From IMG/VR virus record IMGVR_UViG_3300044712_001570, positions 1-64,000 of that record: a stretch of 64,000 nucleotides of DNA. The stretch is one strand, 5' to 3'. The DNA is from a virus. Positions 2,411-44,171 of the stretch are shown here, one piece after another. Position numbers and translations under genes: made by a program. The notes beneath the pieces are model-generated. The model did not search any database. It was not told where the DNA came from and saw nothing but the letters and a program-made list of their open reading frames with translations. Position 1 is the stretch's first letter, and every line of letters starts with the position of its first letter.

Positions 2411-3040
2411 TCACAAGATAGGTTGCATCCAACCGAGGACACTCTTCTGATCAAAAACCAACTGTCGAGCATCGACCTTTCTCTTTGATAAAAGAGAAAC
2501 AAGATCTCTTAAGATCTCTTTAAGAATTAAGATCTTAAAACACGGGGGTGTTTTGATTATTTTGGAAGGCCTTAGGGAAGAGCTTTCGAAGGCTCCTAAA
2601 CCGGCCATTTTGAGTCGCCATGTAACCAACTCCGGTGCACCCCCACACCTCCCTGTGGAGTACATCCCCATTCCAGCTCGTATAAGATTTTTGTGATCTC
2701 TGCATAGTACTATGGCCTCCTTCATGACCACTAACCCTATCTCCAATCCCAACTTGCGTGAGTTTTTAACTTCGCTTGATATATAACCATGTGCCTTAAG
2801 GTGGTTAACATTAACCTGCATCACACCTATAGACCTACCGCTATCACCAACAGTAGCTGGGTCCCACTTGCTCTCGTACCAAGACCATAGCAGTAACAAC
2901 TTTTCAGTCTGTTCTTCCGATAGATTAATCAAAGCACCCCCACTTGAAACAACCTCGTGCACCTCTTGTGCAACCTGTTTACCTAGGTCTATGTGGGAGG
3001 GAGGGGTGAAGGTGAGTAAAAATGCTAATAGCTGTTCCAT
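2411..3040 (-). CDS. Lytic transglycosylase (SLT-like) with in-frame hairpin insert
   Basis: A 209-residue peptidoglycan lytic enzyme. Residues about 45-145 form an SLT/goose-lysozyme-like domain. Signs are the catalytic glutamate in WYESKWDP (about 53-60), then GDSGRSIGVMQV, the family's 'G-S-x-G-x-M-Q' box, and GMGMYSTGRCG. It would cleave the glycan strand of the cell wall during lysis or DNA entry. The N-terminus (MEQLLAFLLTF) is hydrophobic but short, so export is uncertain. After the domain, from about residue 160, the protein continues into a segment beginning IIKTPPCFKIL. That segment is encoded by four tandem hairpins and recurs in the replication protein at 32169-33407. The insert therefore forms most of the C-terminal tail and is dispensable for the catalytic fold. 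Whether the phage uses this as endolysin or virion enzyme is unclear. Confidence 0.85.
   Translation of the reverse strand: MEQLLAFLLTFTPPSHIDLGKQVAQEVHEVVSSGGALINLSEEQTEKLLLLWSWYESKWDPATVGDSGRSIGVMQVNVNHLKAHGYISSEVKNSRKLGLEIGLVVMKEAIVLCRDHKNLIRAGMGMYSTGRCGGAPELVTWRLKMAGLGAFESSSLRPSKIIKTPPCFKILILKEILRDLVSLLSKRKVDARQLVFDQKSVLGWMQPIL
2464..2560 (-). repeat. Tandem-hairpin element, copy A (in frame inside lysozyme gene)
   Basis: Read on the minus strand from 2560 down. Hairpin 1 is AAAACAC-CCCC-GTGTTTT (2554-2537). Then comes a cluster of AAGATCTT palindromes (2540-2501). Hairpin 3 is TTTCTCTTT-TATC-AAAGAGAAA (2499-2478), and hairpin 4 is GTCGA-TGC-TCGAC (2476-2464). Copy B at 32621-32717 has the same order. 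Hairpin 1 is identical in both; hairpins 3 and 4 keep pairing with different loops or different stem sequence. Weaker similarity (AGCTCTTCCCTA) extends upstream of both copies. Both copies are translated in the same frame, giving IIKTPPCFKIL. The pattern resembles small palindromic elements known to insert in frame in protein genes, such as Rickettsia palindromic elements. Confidence 0.85.
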
Positions 3041-7096: not shown

Positions 7097-7689
7097 GCTA
7101 TATGATGACACCAGACTCTGATCTAAATACTCATAATCTCTTCCCTTGCTATCATATTATTGAGGGTAATAATAAGACTACTCCAAGACCATCGTATGCA
7201 ACCGTAAGCCGCCAACATAAGTATAATGATCTAAACGATGCAATAACATGCAGTATATGCATACGTACATACCGTAAACCTATAATAGACCTATGGAAGC
7301 TATTAAAGAGGGTGAGGTGTGTACGAAGTGTTACTTCTGATTTACTATTGCATTCAGTAAATGAACCTGCACCTATTAGCATGCTAGCTTCCACAAGTAG
7401 TCATGCGCATATAGAATCAATAAAGCTTGTTAATATAAGACAGTTTTGGTACATTATGGGCCTTATTAAGTCACCCACCTATACTTATAGAGCTATAAAG
7501 ATTAGTATGGGGTGGAACAATAGGGAGCTGGTAGAGGTTATAGAACGCGTAAAGGCTTTGAATGCTATGGTTATGTTTATGGAGTCTACAATAGACATGG
7601 ATAAAAATATAAGCTTTTCTACTATCAATATAGACTACGATGACTTTATTAAACAAGTAAAGGATATGATGCATATGGGAGAGGGCTAG
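7093..7689 (+). CDS. Hypothetical protein, paralogue of the next gene
   Basis: A 198-residue protein of unknown function. It shares its plan with the 135-residue product of 7693-8100: an FPCYH box near the N-terminus, a central run of cysteines (TCSICIRTYRKPIIDL), an R/EFW box (IRQFWYIMG) about two thirds along, and a helical tail. The matching boxes in the neighbour are FLCYH, CNVCKLAFPLEVV and IAEFWNVMA. Two Cys pairs suggest a small metal site. Tandem arrangement with four intervening bases implies duplication. Confidence 0.65.
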   Translation: MSYMMTPDSDLNTHNLFPCYHIIEGNNKTTPRPSYATVSRQHKYNDLNDAITCSICIRTYRKPIIDLWKLLKRVRCVRSVTSDLLLHSVNEPAPISMLASTSSHAHIESIKLVNIRQFWYIMGLIKSPTYTYRAIKISMGWNNRELVEVIERVKALNAMVMFMESTIDMDKNISFSTINIDYDDFIKQVKDMMHMGEG

Positions 7690-23223: not shown

Positions 23224-23411
23224 TAGTATCTCCTCCATGTAGTACTGGGTTTGGGTTTAGGCCAAGCGCTTGTATCTTTAGGGATATTGTCCTTATCCCC
23301 GTAATAGTTAATAAAGTGGCATCCGCAGTTCCCGCAGAAAGCGTAGTAGTCGACCTCAGTATCTTTACCGAGATCGTCGTCACAATCGGGGCAGGTGCAT
23401 GAGCAGGCCAC
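23223..23411 (-). CDS. Small zinc-ribbon protein
   Basis: A 62-residue protein with CSCTCPDCDDD at the start and FCGNCGCHFINYY in the middle, enough for one four-Cys zinc ribbon. It ends TSAWPKPKPSTTWRRY. The stop codon shares a base with the next start. A nucleic-acid or protein adaptor role is likely for this class but not shown. Confidence 0.65.
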   Translation of the reverse strand: MACSCTCPDCDDDLGKDTEVDYYAFCGNCGCHFINYYGDKDNIPKDTSAWPKPKPSTTWRRY

Positions 23412-23606
23412 TTAACCCTCCAACTTAGTTGAATAGTAGTTGCCCTTTTTCCAGGCGAGCTCAAGGGAGGAGCGTGGGAACTCCTCCGTGATTAGAGGAG
23501 CAAGCTTTACTTGTTCCTCTACAGGAATCTCAAGGTAAGTAGAGATATGGGGATACTCCATCCCCATCTCAAAGGCTTGTTCGATTGCGTTTGCGCTTGT
23601 GGTCAT
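23412..23606 (-). CDS. Hypothetical protein after divergent control region
   Basis: A 64-residue helical protein starting MTTSANAIEQAFEMGMEYPH at 23606 and ending NYYSTKLEG. The frame continues upstream to 23717 but that part is low-complexity intergenic DNA. The 30-base module before 23606 is duplicated before the oppositely oriented gene at 23903, which fixes this start. No Shine-Dalgarno sequence is present, so the message may be leaderless or nearly so. Confidence 0.6.
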   Translation of the reverse strand: MTTSANAIEQAFEMGMEYPHISTYLEIPVEEQVKLAPLITEEFPRSSLELAWKKGNYYSTKLEG

Positions 23607-23902
23607 GCTTATAGTATATGCACTAGGTATGCCAAGGTTTGCGCACCTACCCCTATTATAGGGATCGCGCAATACCCCTAGTATTATGGGCATTATAAGG
23701 ATAGCCATCCTTTGCACTACTTGGCTAATCTTTGCATACCTTGCACATCTTTACATGCCTAGCTTTCCCCTTCAAAACTAAGGTTTTGCCCTATAGCTAC
23801 GACTTATTTGCATGGTATCTATAAAACCCTTATAAAACCTACAGGTTTTGCATAGGCTATAGGTTAGCCAAGGTTGGCACACCTAGTGCATTATGGGTAT
23901 GC
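23607..23902. promoter_or_regulatory. Divergent control region with inverted operator/promoter modules
   Basis: A 296-base AT-rich gap between divergent genes. Both starts are preceded at identical distance (29 bases before the A of ATG) by TTGGCA-Y-ACCTAGTGCAT, on the minus strand at 23635-23618 and on the plus strand at 23874-23891. A related TAGTATTATGGGCATT lies at 23679-23694, and the plus copy sits in the palindrome GCCAAGGTTGGC. Other elements are CCCTATTATAGGG (a palindrome with TATAAT on the minus strand), TTATAATG on the minus strand near 23695, and repeats of TTTGCAY (23711, 23731, 23818, 23848). No coding frame fits. It likely holds divergent promoters with shared regulator sites. 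Confidence 0.65.
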
Positions 23903-24097
23903 ATGAACGCAACCCCTGACCAGATAAGCAATATAACCCTCACTAACTGTAAACTTATTGCTACTTTTAAATATGTAGAGCAAAACCTTATTAGACTAGA
24001 TTATAATAATATAACCCTTCACCTTACTAAAGAAGAAGCTATAGGCCAAAAAGCCTACATGATCGCCATGGGCTGGAAGGTTTCTAATCGCGCATAA
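23903..24097 (+). CDS. Hypothetical 64-residue protein
   Basis: A small protein (ISNITLTNCKLIATFKYVEQ, then NNITLHLTKEEAIGQKAYM) with alternating strands and one helix. The ATG directly follows the duplicated control module without Shine-Dalgarno sequence. The stop codon lies inside the 5' strand of a tRNA-like acceptor stem. Function unknown. Confidence 0.6.
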   Translation: MNATPDQISNITLTNCKLIATFKYVEQNLIRLDYNNITLHLTKEEAIGQKAYMIAMGWKVSNRA

Positions 24098-32168: not shown

Positions 32169-33407
32169 ATGTATACTACTCAACTATCACGTAGTAAGGC
32201 GAAGCCACATTCGCTTAGTGCTAAAGAGCTGGAGAGACGTATAGGCTCTACTACCTATATGGTATGGCAGGGTATATATGATGCTCGCAACGTATGGACT
32301 GGCACTACTCTTATATCTCGTGATGAACTAGCTACCGAGTTAGGTATATCCCCTCATACTGTTAAAGACTGTTTATCCCGTTTACATAAGCTGCAACTCG
32401 TTAGGACTGTAGGTCGCATGCAGGGCGGGAGAGTATGGCGACATATAGTTGGTTCCATATGGCATGGTCAGCTATGCCTACCTGTCAAGGTCTATGATGC
32501 ACTCATGCTCAACAAGGGTCGTGGAGGGTTCCGTGCGAACGCCGGACGACCAAGAAAAGATGGAAATCCACCTATGCGAAGAAGCTCTTCCCTACCCCCT
32601 CAAGATAGCTCTGCATTGATAATCAAAACACCCCCGTGTTTTAAGATCTTAAATATTAAAGATCTTAAGATCTCTGTTTCTCTTTCTGAAGAAAGAGAAA
32701 GGCAAGCTGGTGCTTGCGTCGATTCTAAAACTTTAGTCGGGAGGGATATAGCTCAACGCTTACCGGGTGTACCGAAGTTCATAAGCGTTAGTACTCTCTC
32801 GAATGTATATACACCCGATCCGCCAAGGCTAGACCCTAAAGCACACCCGCATGTTCATACCCGACTGATAGTGAAGTGGATTGAGGGTTGCTATAAAGCA
32901 TACCTAGGTAAGCGCTGTTGGATGTTTATATCCGAGAAGAAACCACTCGAACAGTCTAAGCGGTTTCCGCTATTGTTAGATGCAGCTAAAGCTTTTATTG
33001 AGAATGATATATCACCCGCGCTTTGGTTTGCATGGTCATTCAACTTCTGGAATCAGAATAAGACTAAGAAGGCTATGCCACCACTTGCATGGTTATTATC
33101 TCCTAAGCGTATGGCAGAACGTAGTGGATGGTTTCATTCAGAAGCTGCATTCACTATGGGATGCCGTATGCAGTACAATGATACTGAGCGCAAGTTCATG
33201 CTATTGCAGCATCGTATGATTACTGAACTTTCTTTATTAACCGTTGAGGAGTGTACTGATTACAAGGTGCAATCTATTGTTCATAAATACTTTCCGAAAG
33301 GGTTATATGACAACATTGTTCAAGAGATAAAGTCGGATGCTATTATGAGACAGATGGAACTCAGTGATGCAGTTGCAAGAGGAGAATGGTTATGGGGAGC
33401 CCTATAG
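32169..33407 (+). CDS. Winged-helix replication protein with in-frame hairpin insert
   Basis: A 412-residue protein. The N-terminal 110 residues form a winged helix (ISRDELATELGISPHTVKDC, LHKLQLVRTVGRMQGGRVW) like phage and plasmid replication initiators. A basic linker (FRANAGRPRKDGNPP) follows. Then comes the in-frame hairpin-element segment IIKTPPCFKIL (about 153-185). The rest (RLIVKWIEGCYKAYLGKRC onward) is a helical domain that may bind the helicase encoded next. Position before a DnaB-like helicase and primase supports a role in origin recognition or helicase loading. The insert lies in the linker between domains. Confidence 0.75.
   Translation: MYTTQLSRSKAKPHSLSAKELERRIGSTTYMVWQGIYDARNVWTGTTLISRDELATELGISPHTVKDCLSRLHKLQLVRTVGRMQGGRVWRHIVGSIWHGQLCLPVKVYDALMLNKGRGGFRANAGRPRKDGNPPMRRSSSLPPQDSSALIIKTPPCFKILNIKDLKISVSLSEERERQAGACVDSKTLVGRDIAQRLPGVPKFISVSTLSNVYTPDPPRLDPKAHPHVHTRLIVKWIEGCYKAYLGKRCWMFISEKKPLEQSKRFPLLLDAAKAFIENDISPALWFAWSFNFWNQNKTKKAMPPLAWLLSPKRMAERSGWFHSEAAFTMGCRMQYNDTERKFMLLQHRMITELSLLTVEECTDYKVQSIVHKYFPKGLYDNIVQEIKSDAIMRQMELSDAVARGEWLWGAL
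32621..32717 (+). repeat. Tandem-hairpin element, copy B (in frame inside replication gene)
   Basis: Hairpin 1 is AAAACAC-CCCC-GTGTTTT (32625-32642). The AAGATCTT palindrome cluster covers 32643-32674. Hairpin 3 is TTTCTCTTTC-TGAA-GAAAGAGAAA (32677-32700), and hairpin 4 is GCAAGC-TGGT-GCTTGC (32702-32717). Hairpin 4 shares no stem sequence with copy A yet holds the same place, and hairpin 3 gains one base pair with a different loop. The order, spacing and reading frame match the minus-strand copy at 2464-2560. Confidence 0.85.
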
Positions 33408-34765
33408 TTCATGCAAACGTTCCCATGGGTGTTACACCCTACGGGTTTGATAGTAACTACGAAAGAGCAGTTGTTTATTATCTAGCATCTAATCCTAAGT
33501 TCTTCGGTCGTATAGGTAGTGCTATTGAACCTGATTGTTTAGCAGATGAAACAGCTCGCAGTATTACTAGGGCTGCACAATCGATAGCACATGACTGTGG
33601 TACCGGTCCTGATAGTACAACCCTTATTCTTCAGCGTATGCGTGGATGGTTCAAAGAGGGTAAGATATTAGAAGAAACTGTTTATAACGCAGTTGAATAC
33701 TTTGATGCTGTAGAAGCAGATATGTCAAAGCTTCCATCATGGGAGAAGTGCTTACCCGATCTTATAGCTATCATTAAACGCCGTATGGAGTGGACAGCAC
33801 TTCAAACAGGTCTAAAAGAATACTCACATCGTGGTGATACTAGTCGTGTAGTTGATATATTCAATAAGGCTAAAAGACTAGGTACAACCGATGATGGAGT
33901 AGGCTCCCGCATAGGCAGAGCGTCCCTACAAGGTATTAAGGTCTTAGCAGAAGCTGATAAGGTGCAAACAGGTATCTTAGAGCTTGACGACTATCTTCGA
34001 GGTGGAAGAATGCGGGGTACCCTTTGGATGTGGATGGGTAGACCTGGAAGCGGTAAGTCTATGGGTTTAGTAGGGGATGCATGTGCAGCAGCCTATCAAG
34101 GCCACCTAGTATGCGCTGCGACATGTGAGTTAGCTCAAAGTCTATGGGAAGCTCGAATCAATGCTCACCTAACGGGTATCTCGATCGATGAGATATTAGC
34201 TAACCCAATGTGCATTGAGGAGCAGATAGATACTATAACAACCGCACCAGGCTTTGGTGGTATCATAGTTAAAGCTTTTCAGTCTGGGGTATCAACAGTA
34301 GAAGATGTATTTGATTGGACTAAGCATTGTGAAGATATGTATGGGTGTAAATGCTCTACCCTTGTTGTTGATTATCTTGATAAGCTAAAATCAAGGGAGA
34401 GGATTAAAGATAGATACGAGGAGCTAGGGGTTATATCAGATAAGCTTTTCTATTATGCAAGGGATGGTGAACGTTGGTCCACTACAGCTACACAAGCTAG
34501 GAGAGGTGATAAGAATAAAAAAGGTAAGTCCTCCAGATTAGAGCAGGAGGATATGGGCGACAGCGATCTTAAGTCTCGTAATACCGATTACCTATGTACT
34601 ATCAATCCAGAGGATGATGGGTATAATAGTCTATTCATTGCAAAGAACAGGGTTGGTCCTGCTGGTAAATCCGTAGGACCCTTCCCGACAGACTTCTCCA
34701 TAGCCAGGCTTGCACCTACTGTATTCCTTCCCCCTTGGAGTGGTAACACACCATGCCCACAATAA
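33392..34765 (+). CDS. DnaB-like replicative helicase
   Basis: A 457-residue RecA-fold helicase. The ATG at 33392 is chosen because AGGAG is seven bases upstream; an ATG at 33386 is in frame. The N-terminal 150 residues (DSNYERAVVYYLASNPKFFG) resemble the DnaB N-terminal domain. Walker A is GRPGSGKS (about 216-223), then Walker B LVVDYLDKLK (about 324-333). Later motifs are ATQARRGDK and a DLKSRNTDY loop. It would unwind the fork for the primase encoded after it. Length and arrangement are typical of phage DnaB-like helicases. Confidence 0.9.
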   Translation: MGSPIVHANVPMGVTPYGFDSNYERAVVYYLASNPKFFGRIGSAIEPDCLADETARSITRAAQSIAHDCGTGPDSTTLILQRMRGWFKEGKILEETVYNAVEYFDAVEADMSKLPSWEKCLPDLIAIIKRRMEWTALQTGLKEYSHRGDTSRVVDIFNKAKRLGTTDDGVGSRIGRASLQGIKVLAEADKVQTGILELDDYLRGGRMRGTLWMWMGRPGSGKSMGLVGDACAAAYQGHLVCAATCELAQSLWEARINAHLTGISIDEILANPMCIEEQIDTITTAPGFGGIIVKAFQSGVSTVEDVFDWTKHCEDMYGCKCSTLVVDYLDKLKSRERIKDRYEELGVISDKLFYYARDGERWSTTATQARRGDKNKKGKSSRLEQEDMGDSDLKSRNTDYLCTINPEDDGYNSLFIAKNRVGPAGKSVGPFPTDFSIARLAPTVFLPPWSGNTPCPQ

Positions 34766-41116: not shown

Positions 41117-41383
41117 ATGGGTAATCCACTCAAAAGATACGTAAAGGTTGAAGTCCTTGTTAGCGCATCTGGTAAGGGTAAGAAGTGCCACGAATCTTGC
41201 CCTTACCTAAACCGAATGATAGATGAGTTAGAAGGTACTCGTTCAAAGAGTTGTTTATTATTTGATTCACCTTTATCTATATCCGGTAATAATAGTGACA
41301 TTATGCGTTGTCCAGAATGTGTACAAGAAGCAGTAATAATAGATGTTAATAGATTAAAAACAGAATCAAAGGAAAAGCCATGA
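41117..41383 (+). CDS. Hypothetical Cys-rich protein
   Basis: An 88-residue protein with GKKCHESCPYLNRM, KSCLLF and MRCPECVQEA, matching a two-part zinc site. GAGGTAAATAC precedes the ATG, so its ribosome site directly follows the tRNA-like element. Overlaps the SbcD gene by four bases. Function unknown. Confidence 0.6.
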   Translation: MGNPLKRYVKVEVLVSASGKGKKCHESCPYLNRMIDELEGTRSKSCLLFDSPLSISGNNSDIMRCPECVQEAVIIDVNRLKTESKEKP

Positions 41384-42513
41384 AGATTGCATTCTTTGGT
41401 GACGTTCACCTAGGCAACCATAAAAGGGCAGGAGGAGAGATACTTGCGGGGCTCAATGCAAGGTGCCTGCAAAGCCTTCGAGCCTTTAGGAAAGCTATAA
41501 CCCTATGTATTGACCAGGGTTGTAAGATAGCGGTTATTACAGGTGACCTATTCGATTATGATAGGCCAGAGGCTCAACTTATAACCAAGGTGCAAGAGAT
41601 ACTTGCTAGCATTCCACCTGACTTCGTTATCTATTGTATGGTAGGTAACCACGACCAAAGAAGCGAGCTTATAGGGGACCATGCACTTGGTCCTATAAGT
41701 GGGTTAGTACAGGTTATAGATCAACCCTATTCAACCTTGATCACAGTTGATACTGTTAATGGTAAACCATTTAATGCAGTATTAGATATTATACCTTTTA
41801 CATCTAAGCCTGCTATAGATGCTTTGCAGGAGTACCAAGTAGCAAGGAGTAAGTCTCCTTACCCTGCTAACCTCCCTAGGGTACTTGCAATGCACTTTGG
41901 TTTACAAACGAAAGATATAACACCACCTTGGCTATTAGATGCAAAGGATGGTGTTAATGTAGAACGAGTACTTCTACCAATGTGTCAGAAGTATAACATA
42001 GCAGCAGTCTTTGCTGGTCATTACCATTCAGGGGGTCAGCATACTATTCCTGATAGTTTACCTATAGCTACTCAATGTGGTGCTTTGGTACCAACCGGAT
42101 GGGACAACCCAGGTGCAGGCTATGGTAATGTATGGATACTGGATATACAAGGGGAAGGTATAGATGCAACTCTCCATAGAGTACCAGGTCCTAGGTTTCT
42201 ATCTGATATGGATGATGTTAGGTTATGTAATGAGGATGATAATATCTATCTATCAGTTATAGGTGAGAACCAAGATAGTATTCGAGATATGGTTAGTACT
42301 GGTAAACTAGCTTATGGTGAAGTTCTACCAGCGGTATCTAAGACTAAGCTACAGGATGGTCTTAATAAGACTAAAGGTCTTGTTACTATTGATATAGCCA
42401 TAAAAGACTTTATCGAACGATGGTATGGCGATACCACCACTCTTCCACCAGGAATAACCAAGGAAGCTATAACCAGTAGGGTACGTAAATACCTAGCAGG
42501 AGCACAGTCATGA
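41380..42513 (+). CDS. sbcD-like: SbcD/Mre11-type nuclease subunit
   Basis: A 377-residue calcineurin-like phosphoesterase. The five metal motifs appear in order: GDVHLG (8-13), GDLFD (about 56-60), GNHDQ (about 89-93), MHFGL, and GHYHSG (about 215-220). It forms the nuclease half of the Mre11-Rad50/SbcCD (T4 gp47) complex that trims DNA ends and hairpins. The partner gene follows with a four-base overlap. Catalytic residues look complete. Confidence 0.93.
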   Translation: MKIAFFGDVHLGNHKRAGGEILAGLNARCLQSLRAFRKAITLCIDQGCKIAVITGDLFDYDRPEAQLITKVQEILASIPPDFVIYCMVGNHDQRSELIGDHALGPISGLVQVIDQPYSTLITVDTVNGKPFNAVLDIIPFTSKPAIDALQEYQVARSKSPYPANLPRVLAMHFGLQTKDITPPWLLDAKDGVNVERVLLPMCQKYNIAAVFAGHYHSGGQHTIPDSLPIATQCGALVPTGWDNPGAGYGNVWILDIQGEGIDATLHRVPGPRFLSDMDDVRLCNEDDNIYLSVIGENQDSIRDMVSTGKLAYGEVLPAVSKTKLQDGLNKTKGLVTIDIAIKDFIERWYGDTTTLPPGITKEAITSRVRKYLAGAQS

Positions 42514-44171
42514 TAACTGTATCGAAGGTGGTCATTGAGAAGTTTATGAATCATAAGAAGACCACTCTTACCTTTCCATCAACAGGTCTAATAGTAATAA
42601 CAGGGCCTAATGGAGCAGGAAAGAGTTCCTGCCTGGAAGCTATATCCTTTTGCTTATGGGGAAAGACCCTACGGGGTACAGACCCATGGCCTAGTGATGA
42701 TGGTGGAAGAATATTGGTACAGTTAGCTAATGGTATGTGGGTAGAGAGAAACCAGACTAAAAGCATTAAGGGTAGGGTGCTCTTTGCAGGAGGAAGAAAC
42801 GAAGACCCTATATCCTTTGCTACTATGACTAAGGCTCAAGAAACCCTTGATTCAAAGCTATGTAGTTTTGATTGCTGGAGTAAGTCCAGTATCTTTTCCT
42901 CTGCAGATGCAGCTACCTATTCCGATGCTACTGACATGGAGCGAAAGCTTCTCCTGGAGGGTATCATAGGTTTGGATGGTTGCTCCAATGCCCATGAGTT
43001 ATGTAAGGCAGACCTTAAGAGTACCAGGCCTCAACTCATGTCTGCCGATAGTAGGGTTGCATTGGTGCAATCTAAGATTGACCTAGCTAATCAACAAGTT
43101 AGGGCAGCAAGTACTAGATTAGAGGAATGTTCGAGAAGTGCACCACAATCTGCAACATTGGAAGCTACTAAGGCCAAACTTGCAAAGCAACAGGAATCTA
43201 TGCGCAAGTTAGAGCGACAGATTGAACATGACACTAACGTTCATTCAGAGATGCAAGCTAGGGTATACAAGGCTCAGTTTCTAGTTAAGAACACTAAAGC
43301 TTCTTTAGATGCAGCAACCAAACAACAGTGTGAAGCTTGTGGGCAAACCATAGTAACCGATAGTACTAAGATAAAGAACTTACAGGATGCACTTGCTGCT
43401 AGTACTTCAGAGCTTGAATCTCTTCTAGTATTAGAGCAGGAGATTAAAGGTGAGATACCCTATAACAAGGAGCTTCGTGCAGAACTAAAGGTATCGATCG
43501 ATAAGCTATTGGTTGATTACTATAAGCTTTCAGAGTTGGAAGCTGTTAGTTCAAGTGCGAAGGCAGAACACCAAGCTGCACTCGATAGGGCTAATATTCT
43601 TCTCTTAGAGAGTCAAGAGGCCTTAAAGATTGCTCAAGAGGATGTAGAGCGGGTAAAGGCAGAGATAGCCTTGATTGAGTGTGCGGAAAAGGTATTAGGG
43701 ATAAAGGGGGTACGAGCTACAATACTAAGCAATGCCCTGCCTGGTTTGGAGGAGGTAACCAATACATGGCTATCTCAGTTGAACCCAGGTGTAAGTGTTA
43801 GGCTAACTCCTACTGAGAAGAATGGAGTTATAGAGGCGGTACCATTAGATATTAATGGTGTTAATGGTAAAGGCTATAAGAGCACATCCGGCGGTGAAAG
43901 GAGAAGGTTAGATGTAGCCTTAGTGCTAGGGCTAGCAGAGATGGCTAGTGGTGTAACTATTAGGGATACCAATAGCACTCTATTCTTCGATGAGGTTGCA
44001 GACTCCCTAGACAAGGACGGTCTCATAGCAACTGCTCGAATATTCCATGCATTAGCTACTACAAGGTGCGTTGTATTGATAACCCACAGGGAAGAGTTAT
44101 TGGACCAGTTGCAACCTAAAGAGCACTGGAAAGTTATGAACGGCTCTGTAACAGTTGAAAGGAAGTGGTAA
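42510..44171 (+). CDS. sbcC-like: SbcC/Rad50-type ATPase
   Basis: A 553-residue ABC ATPase. Walker A is GPNGAGKSS (32-40). A long coiled coil runs from about 170, with a zinc-hook CEACGQ (about 273-278) at its apex, then returning helices. The signature is TSGGERRRLDVAL (about 458-470) and Walker B is LFFDEVADSLD (about 490), ending with the H-loop in VVLITHREE. It powers SbcD on phage DNA ends (T4 gp46-like). Its last 17 bases recur after the next gene. Confidence 0.93.
   Translation: MITVSKVVIEKFMNHKKTTLTFPSTGLIVITGPNGAGKSSCLEAISFCLWGKTLRGTDPWPSDDGGRILVQLANGMWVERNQTKSIKGRVLFAGGRNEDPISFATMTKAQETLDSKLCSFDCWSKSSIFSSADAATYSDATDMERKLLLEGIIGLDGCSNAHELCKADLKSTRPQLMSADSRVALVQSKIDLANQQVRAASTRLEECSRSAPQSATLEATKAKLAKQQESMRKLERQIEHDTNVHSEMQARVYKAQFLVKNTKASLDAATKQQCEACGQTIVTDSTKIKNLQDALAASTSELESLLVLEQEIKGEIPYNKELRAELKVSIDKLLVDYYKLSELEAVSSSAKAEHQAALDRANILLLESQEALKIAQEDVERVKAEIALIECAEKVLGIKGVRATILSNALPGLEEVTNTWLSQLNPGVSVRLTPTEKNGVIEAVPLDINGVNGKGYKSTSGGERRRLDVALVLGLAEMASGVTIRDTNSTLFFDEVADSLDKDGLIATARIFHALATTRCVVLITHREELLDQLQPKEHWKVMNGSVTVERKW

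Follow-up and report, generated by a model that had tools for sequence, protein, structure and literature searches.

In phage SPP1, one replication origin, oriL, lies within the initiator gene, gene 38, while a similar site, oriR, lies elsewhere in the genome; the initiator gp38 binds both, and oriR has been proposed to stall replication forks and trigger concatemer synthesis (PMC6316719, PMC3485210). The lambda origin is likewise located in gene O, and ectopic copies of this ori are described as causing growth arrest (PMC4488673). For P1, the passages of PMC9948254 cited here postulate an origin, oriL, inside repL, for which an AT-rich stretch is needed, and they describe no hairpin array or second copy. 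Here, we describe an array of hairpins that occurs twice in the genome of an uncultured phage, once within a putative replication initiator gene (copy B) and once at the end of a lysozyme-like gene (copy A), and compare it with these systems.

The 64-kb window analysed, meaning the whole stretch of DNA to which our coordinates refer, is part of an 88,121-bp virus record that is probably a complete genome, since its two ends share a 172-bp direct repeat. Because it encodes structural proteins (baseplate wedge, tail sheath and major head protein) together with its own replication set, namely a UvsW-like helicase, an O-like initiator, a DnaB-like helicase, a primase and a DNA polymerase, it is a contractile-tailed phage. 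It is only very distantly related to named phages: Komagataeibacter phage phiKX1 and Streptomyces phage Kromp have head proteins ~30% identical to its own. Among IMG/VR relatives, head-protein identity reaches 66%, and a fragment of 7.9 kb carries an identical head protein. Twelve relatives were read whole or nearly whole, most of the 80 loci being fragments, and the DNA search for the element covered 50 records. Genes at 41380-44171 of the window specify SbcD- and SbcC-like proteins, a nuclease pair that cuts palindromes, and yet the phage genome keeps palindromes.

SPP1 is the closest known arrangement: there, as here, a site in the initiator gene is matched by a similar distant site, repeats occur with AT-rich DNA, and the initiator gene belongs to a replication module with a DnaB-type helicase (PMC6316719, PMC3485210). 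The SPP1 sites are direct repeats, and oriR is intergenic and ~12-13 kb from oriL, whereas the present phage has palindromes, both copies lie inside open reading frames 30 kb apart, and initiator binding is only putative. Like the present locus, lambda has a tandem series of four units with dyad symmetry, next to an AT-rich stretch, in the linker region of its initiator gene. Its units, however, are repeats of one 18-19 bp sequence, in contrast to the four different palindromes found here, a difference that argues against reading the array as an origin, and lambda has no second ori copy in the sense of copy A. The likeness to P1 oriL, as far as the cited passages go, lies in the postulated position within the initiator gene and in the AT-rich stretch.

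Two inverted copies of a hairpin array

The repeated block is A+T-rich, comprises ~120 letters and contains four palindromes (Table 1). The two copies are inverted relative to each other and ~30 kb apart, with four tandem hairpins each, an arrangement proposed in the first-pass annotation and confirmed by an inverted-arm search and by blastn. The arms at 2517-2560 and 32619-32662 are 95% complementary, blastn with copy B recovers 2476-2560 on the minus strand at 86% identity (E 2.4e-22), and the local alignment of the copies scores 125, where 100 shuffles reach at most 33. Identical columns number 92 of the 123 aligned across the homologous stretch and include an exact core of 34 nt, ATAATCAAAACACCCCCGTGTTTTAAGATCTTAA. 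The sequence TTAAGATCTTAA is confined to the two copies (expected 0.01), and an exact upstream 13-mer common to both, AAGCTCTTCCCTA, had previously been overlooked.

Table 1. Positions of the two copies, their hairpins and the genes that surround them (window coordinates)
Feature	Position	Strand	Description
Copy B, stretch homologous to A	32582..32702	+	121 nt; blastn and local/hand alignment
Copy B, upstream 13-nt block	32582..32594	+	exact match to A
Copy B, hairpin 1	32625..32642	+	AAAACAC/CCCC/GTGTTTT
Copy B, hairpin 2	32641..32668	+	AAGATCTTAA twice, facing each other; 10-bp stem
Copy B, hairpin 3	32677..32700	+	10-bp stem, loop TGAA
Copy B, hairpin 4	32702..32717	+	GCAAGC/TGGT/GCTTGC
Copy A, stretch homologous to B	2476..2585	-	110 nt; blastn and local/hand alignment
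Copy A, upstream 13-nt block	2573..2585	-	exact match to B
Copy A, hairpin 1	2537..2554	-	sequence identical to B's
Copy A, hairpin 2	2509..2538	-	9-bp stem, 12-nt loop
Copy A, hairpin 3	2478..2499	-	9-bp stem, loop TATC
Copy A, hairpin 4	2464..2476	-	GTCGA/TGC/TCGAC
O-like replication initiator gene	32169..33407	+	412 aa; copy B in linker; family match, relatives
DnaB-like helicase gene	33386..34765	+	adjoins initiator gene
Lysozyme-like (SLT) gene	2411..3040	-	209 aa; last ~55 codons are copy A and what follows

Hairpins 3 and 4 are built as the annotation described them, hairpin 3 pairing TTTCTCTTT with AAAGAGAAA in copy A and TTTCTCTTTC with GAAAGAGAAA in copy B, and hairpin 4 having the stems and loops given in Table 1. 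It had been argued from these that pairing is kept while sequence changes, which would point to selection on RNA or DNA structure and not on protein. This is true of hairpin 4, where unrelated sequence pairs in each copy, beginning 1 nt past hairpin 3 in both; the chance of a hairpin with a 3-5 nt loop at a given start is 0.5% for a stem of at least 5 bp and 0.14% for one of at least 6 bp. It is not true of hairpins 1-3, whose stems are the same sequence in the two copies, save that hairpin 3 has one more base pair in copy B and hairpin 2 differs by a 2-nt insertion, and show no compensatory substitutions; with two sequences only, a covariation test has no power.

The changes between the copies lie mostly in loops and spacers, with 4 of 54 stem columns differing as against 27 of 69 others (Fisher P 5e-5 for the entire block and 0.05 when only the core, from 32619 on, is counted), a result that depends on the hand alignment. 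This bears on a simple account in which illegitimate recombination placed a copy of an initiator-gene segment at the lysozyme gene's end, where it has remained inert. Such passive duplication would fit the loss of frame agreement after hairpin 3, the non-homologous hairpin 4 and the lack of a second copy in relatives, and it is compatible with copy B being an origin; we nevertheless think it unlikely for copy A, given the excess of changes outside stems, weak for the core alone, and the fact that each copy has, at a matching offset, a hairpin 4 whose sequence differs from the other's.

As to protein, the two copies share a reading frame, no other being open in both, and encode a common peptide (SSSL...IIKTPPCFKIL...VSL), which leaves the earlier exclusion of selection on protein unsupported. 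Two of the three length differences keep this frame (12 nt; net 3 nt), and the third, a 2-nt difference in hairpin 3, breaks it, in copy A close to the end of the open reading frame. The 34 identical nucleotides contain no synonymous change, whereas flanks and loops have diverged. Because of this conservation, and because two relatives of the initiator have unrelated arrays in their linkers, selection on the element at the nucleic-acid level is plausible from sequence comparison, so that this part of the earlier proposal survives and the reason given for it, compensatory pairing, proves mostly wrong.

Both copies fold better than any of 200 shuffles (z -5.6 for copy B and -3.3 for copy A), and a GC-corrected scan of the genome (4,401 windows, hairpins of limited span) ranks copy B second for structure. 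Strong folding of the coding strand in both copies would suit an RNA element in the two mRNAs, such as a pause, stability or attenuation structure, which is where the first-pass annotation leaned. We consider this very unlikely: both DNA strands of the element fold about equally well, as palindromes must, hairpins 1-3 lack compensatory changes, lysozyme and initiator have no shared regulatory logic, and a comparison with Rfam gave no family at the gathering threshold and chance-level matches below it.

Recombination between the copies, also suggested earlier, would invert 2.5-32.6 kb and swap gene ends. It is possible in principle, as the inverted repeat of ~110 nt includes the 34 identical nucleotides and the frames remain open across the crossover. 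The product, however, would be a 199-aa initiator fragment and a C-terminal domain fused to the lysozyme, which is probably lethal. No inverted form was observed, and since the crossover splits the DNA-binding half of the initiator from its C-terminal domain, an inversion switch that is regulated in this way seems extremely improbable.

The initiator gene and the candidate origin

The product of the gene that houses copy B matches the O-like family weakly (E 2.4e-4). It has a winged helix at residues ~45-89, the element at residues ~139-185 and, from residue ~237, a C-terminal domain common to its relatives, such that copy B is located between the O-like winged-helix domain and the C-terminal domain, with DnaB and primase genes nearby; a single-sequence structure model of the protein was too poor to use. 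Copy B is the most structured stretch of the gene and among its most AT-rich, its windows having the lowest GC content in the gene, tied with one other place, and falling in the lowest 4.5% of the genome. Its offset, ~451-549 of 1239, is similar in relative position to that of the lambda iterons, at 349-434 of 900 in O. When lambda O was used as a control, the same two measures, structure and AT-richness, picked out the annotated iterons.

Relatives of the initiator are few and weak. Two of them, from the phage genomes G054 and G044, have the winged helix, the linker and the C-terminal domain, while three others consist of the C-terminal domain only, without a linker. The G054 linker, which is AT-rich, contains the hairpins TATCTCCT-AAGA-AGGAGATA and TCCGC-TTC-GCGGA as well as a longer one, ATCTTCTTTCA...TTGAAAGAAGAT, and no other part of its gene is as structured; genome-wide, it comes sixth. 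In G044, AATCAAAGGGGTCCC occurs twice in the linker and is otherwise absent from the genome. This linker has the lowest GC content of its gene and belongs to the lowest 0.07% genome-wide; the folding comparison revealed no special structure in it. The repeats and hairpins of both are unrelated in sequence to copy B, and the motif ATCAAA, common to the three linkers, is too short to count. An AT-rich linker carrying repeats or hairpins of unrelated sequence thus recurs where lambda has its origin, in a comparison of three genes, which are few, with weakly related N-terminal halves. No second copy of the array was found in G044 or in G054, the latter being a 60.6-kb fragment.

By analogy with lambda and SPP1, we give an even chance to the proposal that copy B is a replication origin inside the gene of its own initiator and copy A an ectopic duplicate, either a second initiator-binding site or a decaying copy. 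The following course of events, from binding by the initiator to whatever copy A may do, is our inference. Either the palindromes or the AGATCTTAA repeats would be the target of the initiator's N-terminal winged-helix part; the AT-rich stretch would then open, and the DnaB-like helicase encoded next door would be recruited by the C-terminal domain. Copy A would have reached the 3' end of the lysozyme-like gene by duplication, keeping its core, and it may now serve as a second binding site for the initiator, like SPP1 oriR, or be decaying. The growth arrest caused by ectopic lambda ori implies that a retained second copy would need a role or be silent. The open frame through the hairpin array would be explained by the fact that the palindromic DNA must also encode the linker of the initiator.

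The four palindromes of copy B differ from one another, and the array includes two near-identical 13-mers, TTTAAGATCTTAA and TTAAAGATCTTAA. A bolder version strikes us as quite unlikely: the origin information would reside in unlike DNA hairpins rather than in repeated initiator sites, these hairpins would be embedded in the coding frames of two unrelated proteins, and the distal copy would be a second origin or a fork barrier from which concatemer formation begins. GC skew turns at ~7 and 46 kb, at neither copy, and was rejected as an origin marker because it follows gene direction.

If copy B is an origin as proposed, the origin of an uncultured phage would have been placed from sequence alone, and the locus would be another case of the SPP1 arrangement, here with both copies within genes. 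A second-origin role would then become testable outside SPP1, and the linker would be a piece of protein whose sequence is dictated by DNA.

The copy in the lysozyme-like gene

Copy A starts a few residues past the last conserved part of the lysozyme-like domain. Three lysozyme relatives end ~10-20 residues beyond that conserved part and lack the tail, and as these are only ~26% identical the ancestral end of the protein is approximate. Since the relatives end near the domain boundary, copy A and what follows supply a tail of ~55 residues. The adjacent stretch at 2142-2410, which has no obvious minus-strand gene, contains several further long inverted repeats, and 2130-2600 as a whole folds with a z of -4.9.

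Rickettsia palindromic elements (RPE) are multi-copy stretches of palindromic DNA that are read in frame inside unrelated protein genes. From this general description, they resemble the present element, and a selfish palindromic element of this type, inserting into genes in an open frame wherever linkers and gene ends merely tolerate insertion, would account for two copies in unrelated genes that agree in sense and in the one frame open in both, and for copy A lying just past the conserved lysozyme domain. We nonetheless regard it as improbable. Unlike the multi-copy RPE, the present element has two genomic copies only, and searches of 50 related phage records and of phage and plasmid collections, together with pattern scans of IMG/VR, gave no further one; no Y1 (REP-type) transposase was found; and insertion leaves unexplained why other initiators carry unrelated arrays at the place occupied by copy B.

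Searches and other structured sites

Neither a third copy nor a relative of the element was found in the genome by blastn, in the 50 related records or in phage and plasmid collections, which may omit records very close to this genome, or when IMG/VR was scanned with hairpin 1 as an exact pattern, with the peptide that the element encodes and with descriptors of hairpins 1+2 and 2+3. A sequence profile of the element likewise gave no third copy, and no known mobile family was detectable for it. Several candidates were set aside: two matches to the peptide pattern in bacterial genomes lie in unrelated genes and are near chance expectation; matches in an Erwinia phage are of a short AAGATCTT type in an AT-rich intergenic stretch; and a 30-nt match to the upstream part in G010 is antisense within a head-region gene and is not the element.

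Self-comparison of the twelve relatives, which is blind to copies of <75% identity or <50 nt, returned a duplicated structured cassette in G009 that is a different thing from the element: an intergenic terminator/hairpin/promoter-like block of 152 nt, present twice, 26 kb apart and 92% identical (L143:4969-5120; L144:10869-11019). It consists of a long terminator-like hairpin, a second hairpin and promoter-like sequence, and one copy precedes an HNH-nuclease-like gene.

Other palindromes are dispersed in the relatives. G028 (L157-L160) has ~22 near-identical copies of AAATCCAATTGGATCGATCCAATTGGATTT, for example at record positions 522, 8522, 22477 and 74193, many of which directly precede genes, a pattern like that of phages with repeated operator sites. 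In G037 (L165-L169), the palindrome CCGTCGGTGATCGATCACCGACGG, for example at record positions 7294, 29872, 52629 and 59445, is unrelated in sequence to that of G028, and promoter-like GGTAGCCT and the beginning of a gene often come next. In the present phage, structure is strongest at 23380-23960 of the window (z -4.4 near 23461), a region that also has an imperfect inverted repeat of 53 nt (23597-23649 / 23860-23912), in part beyond long open reading frames.
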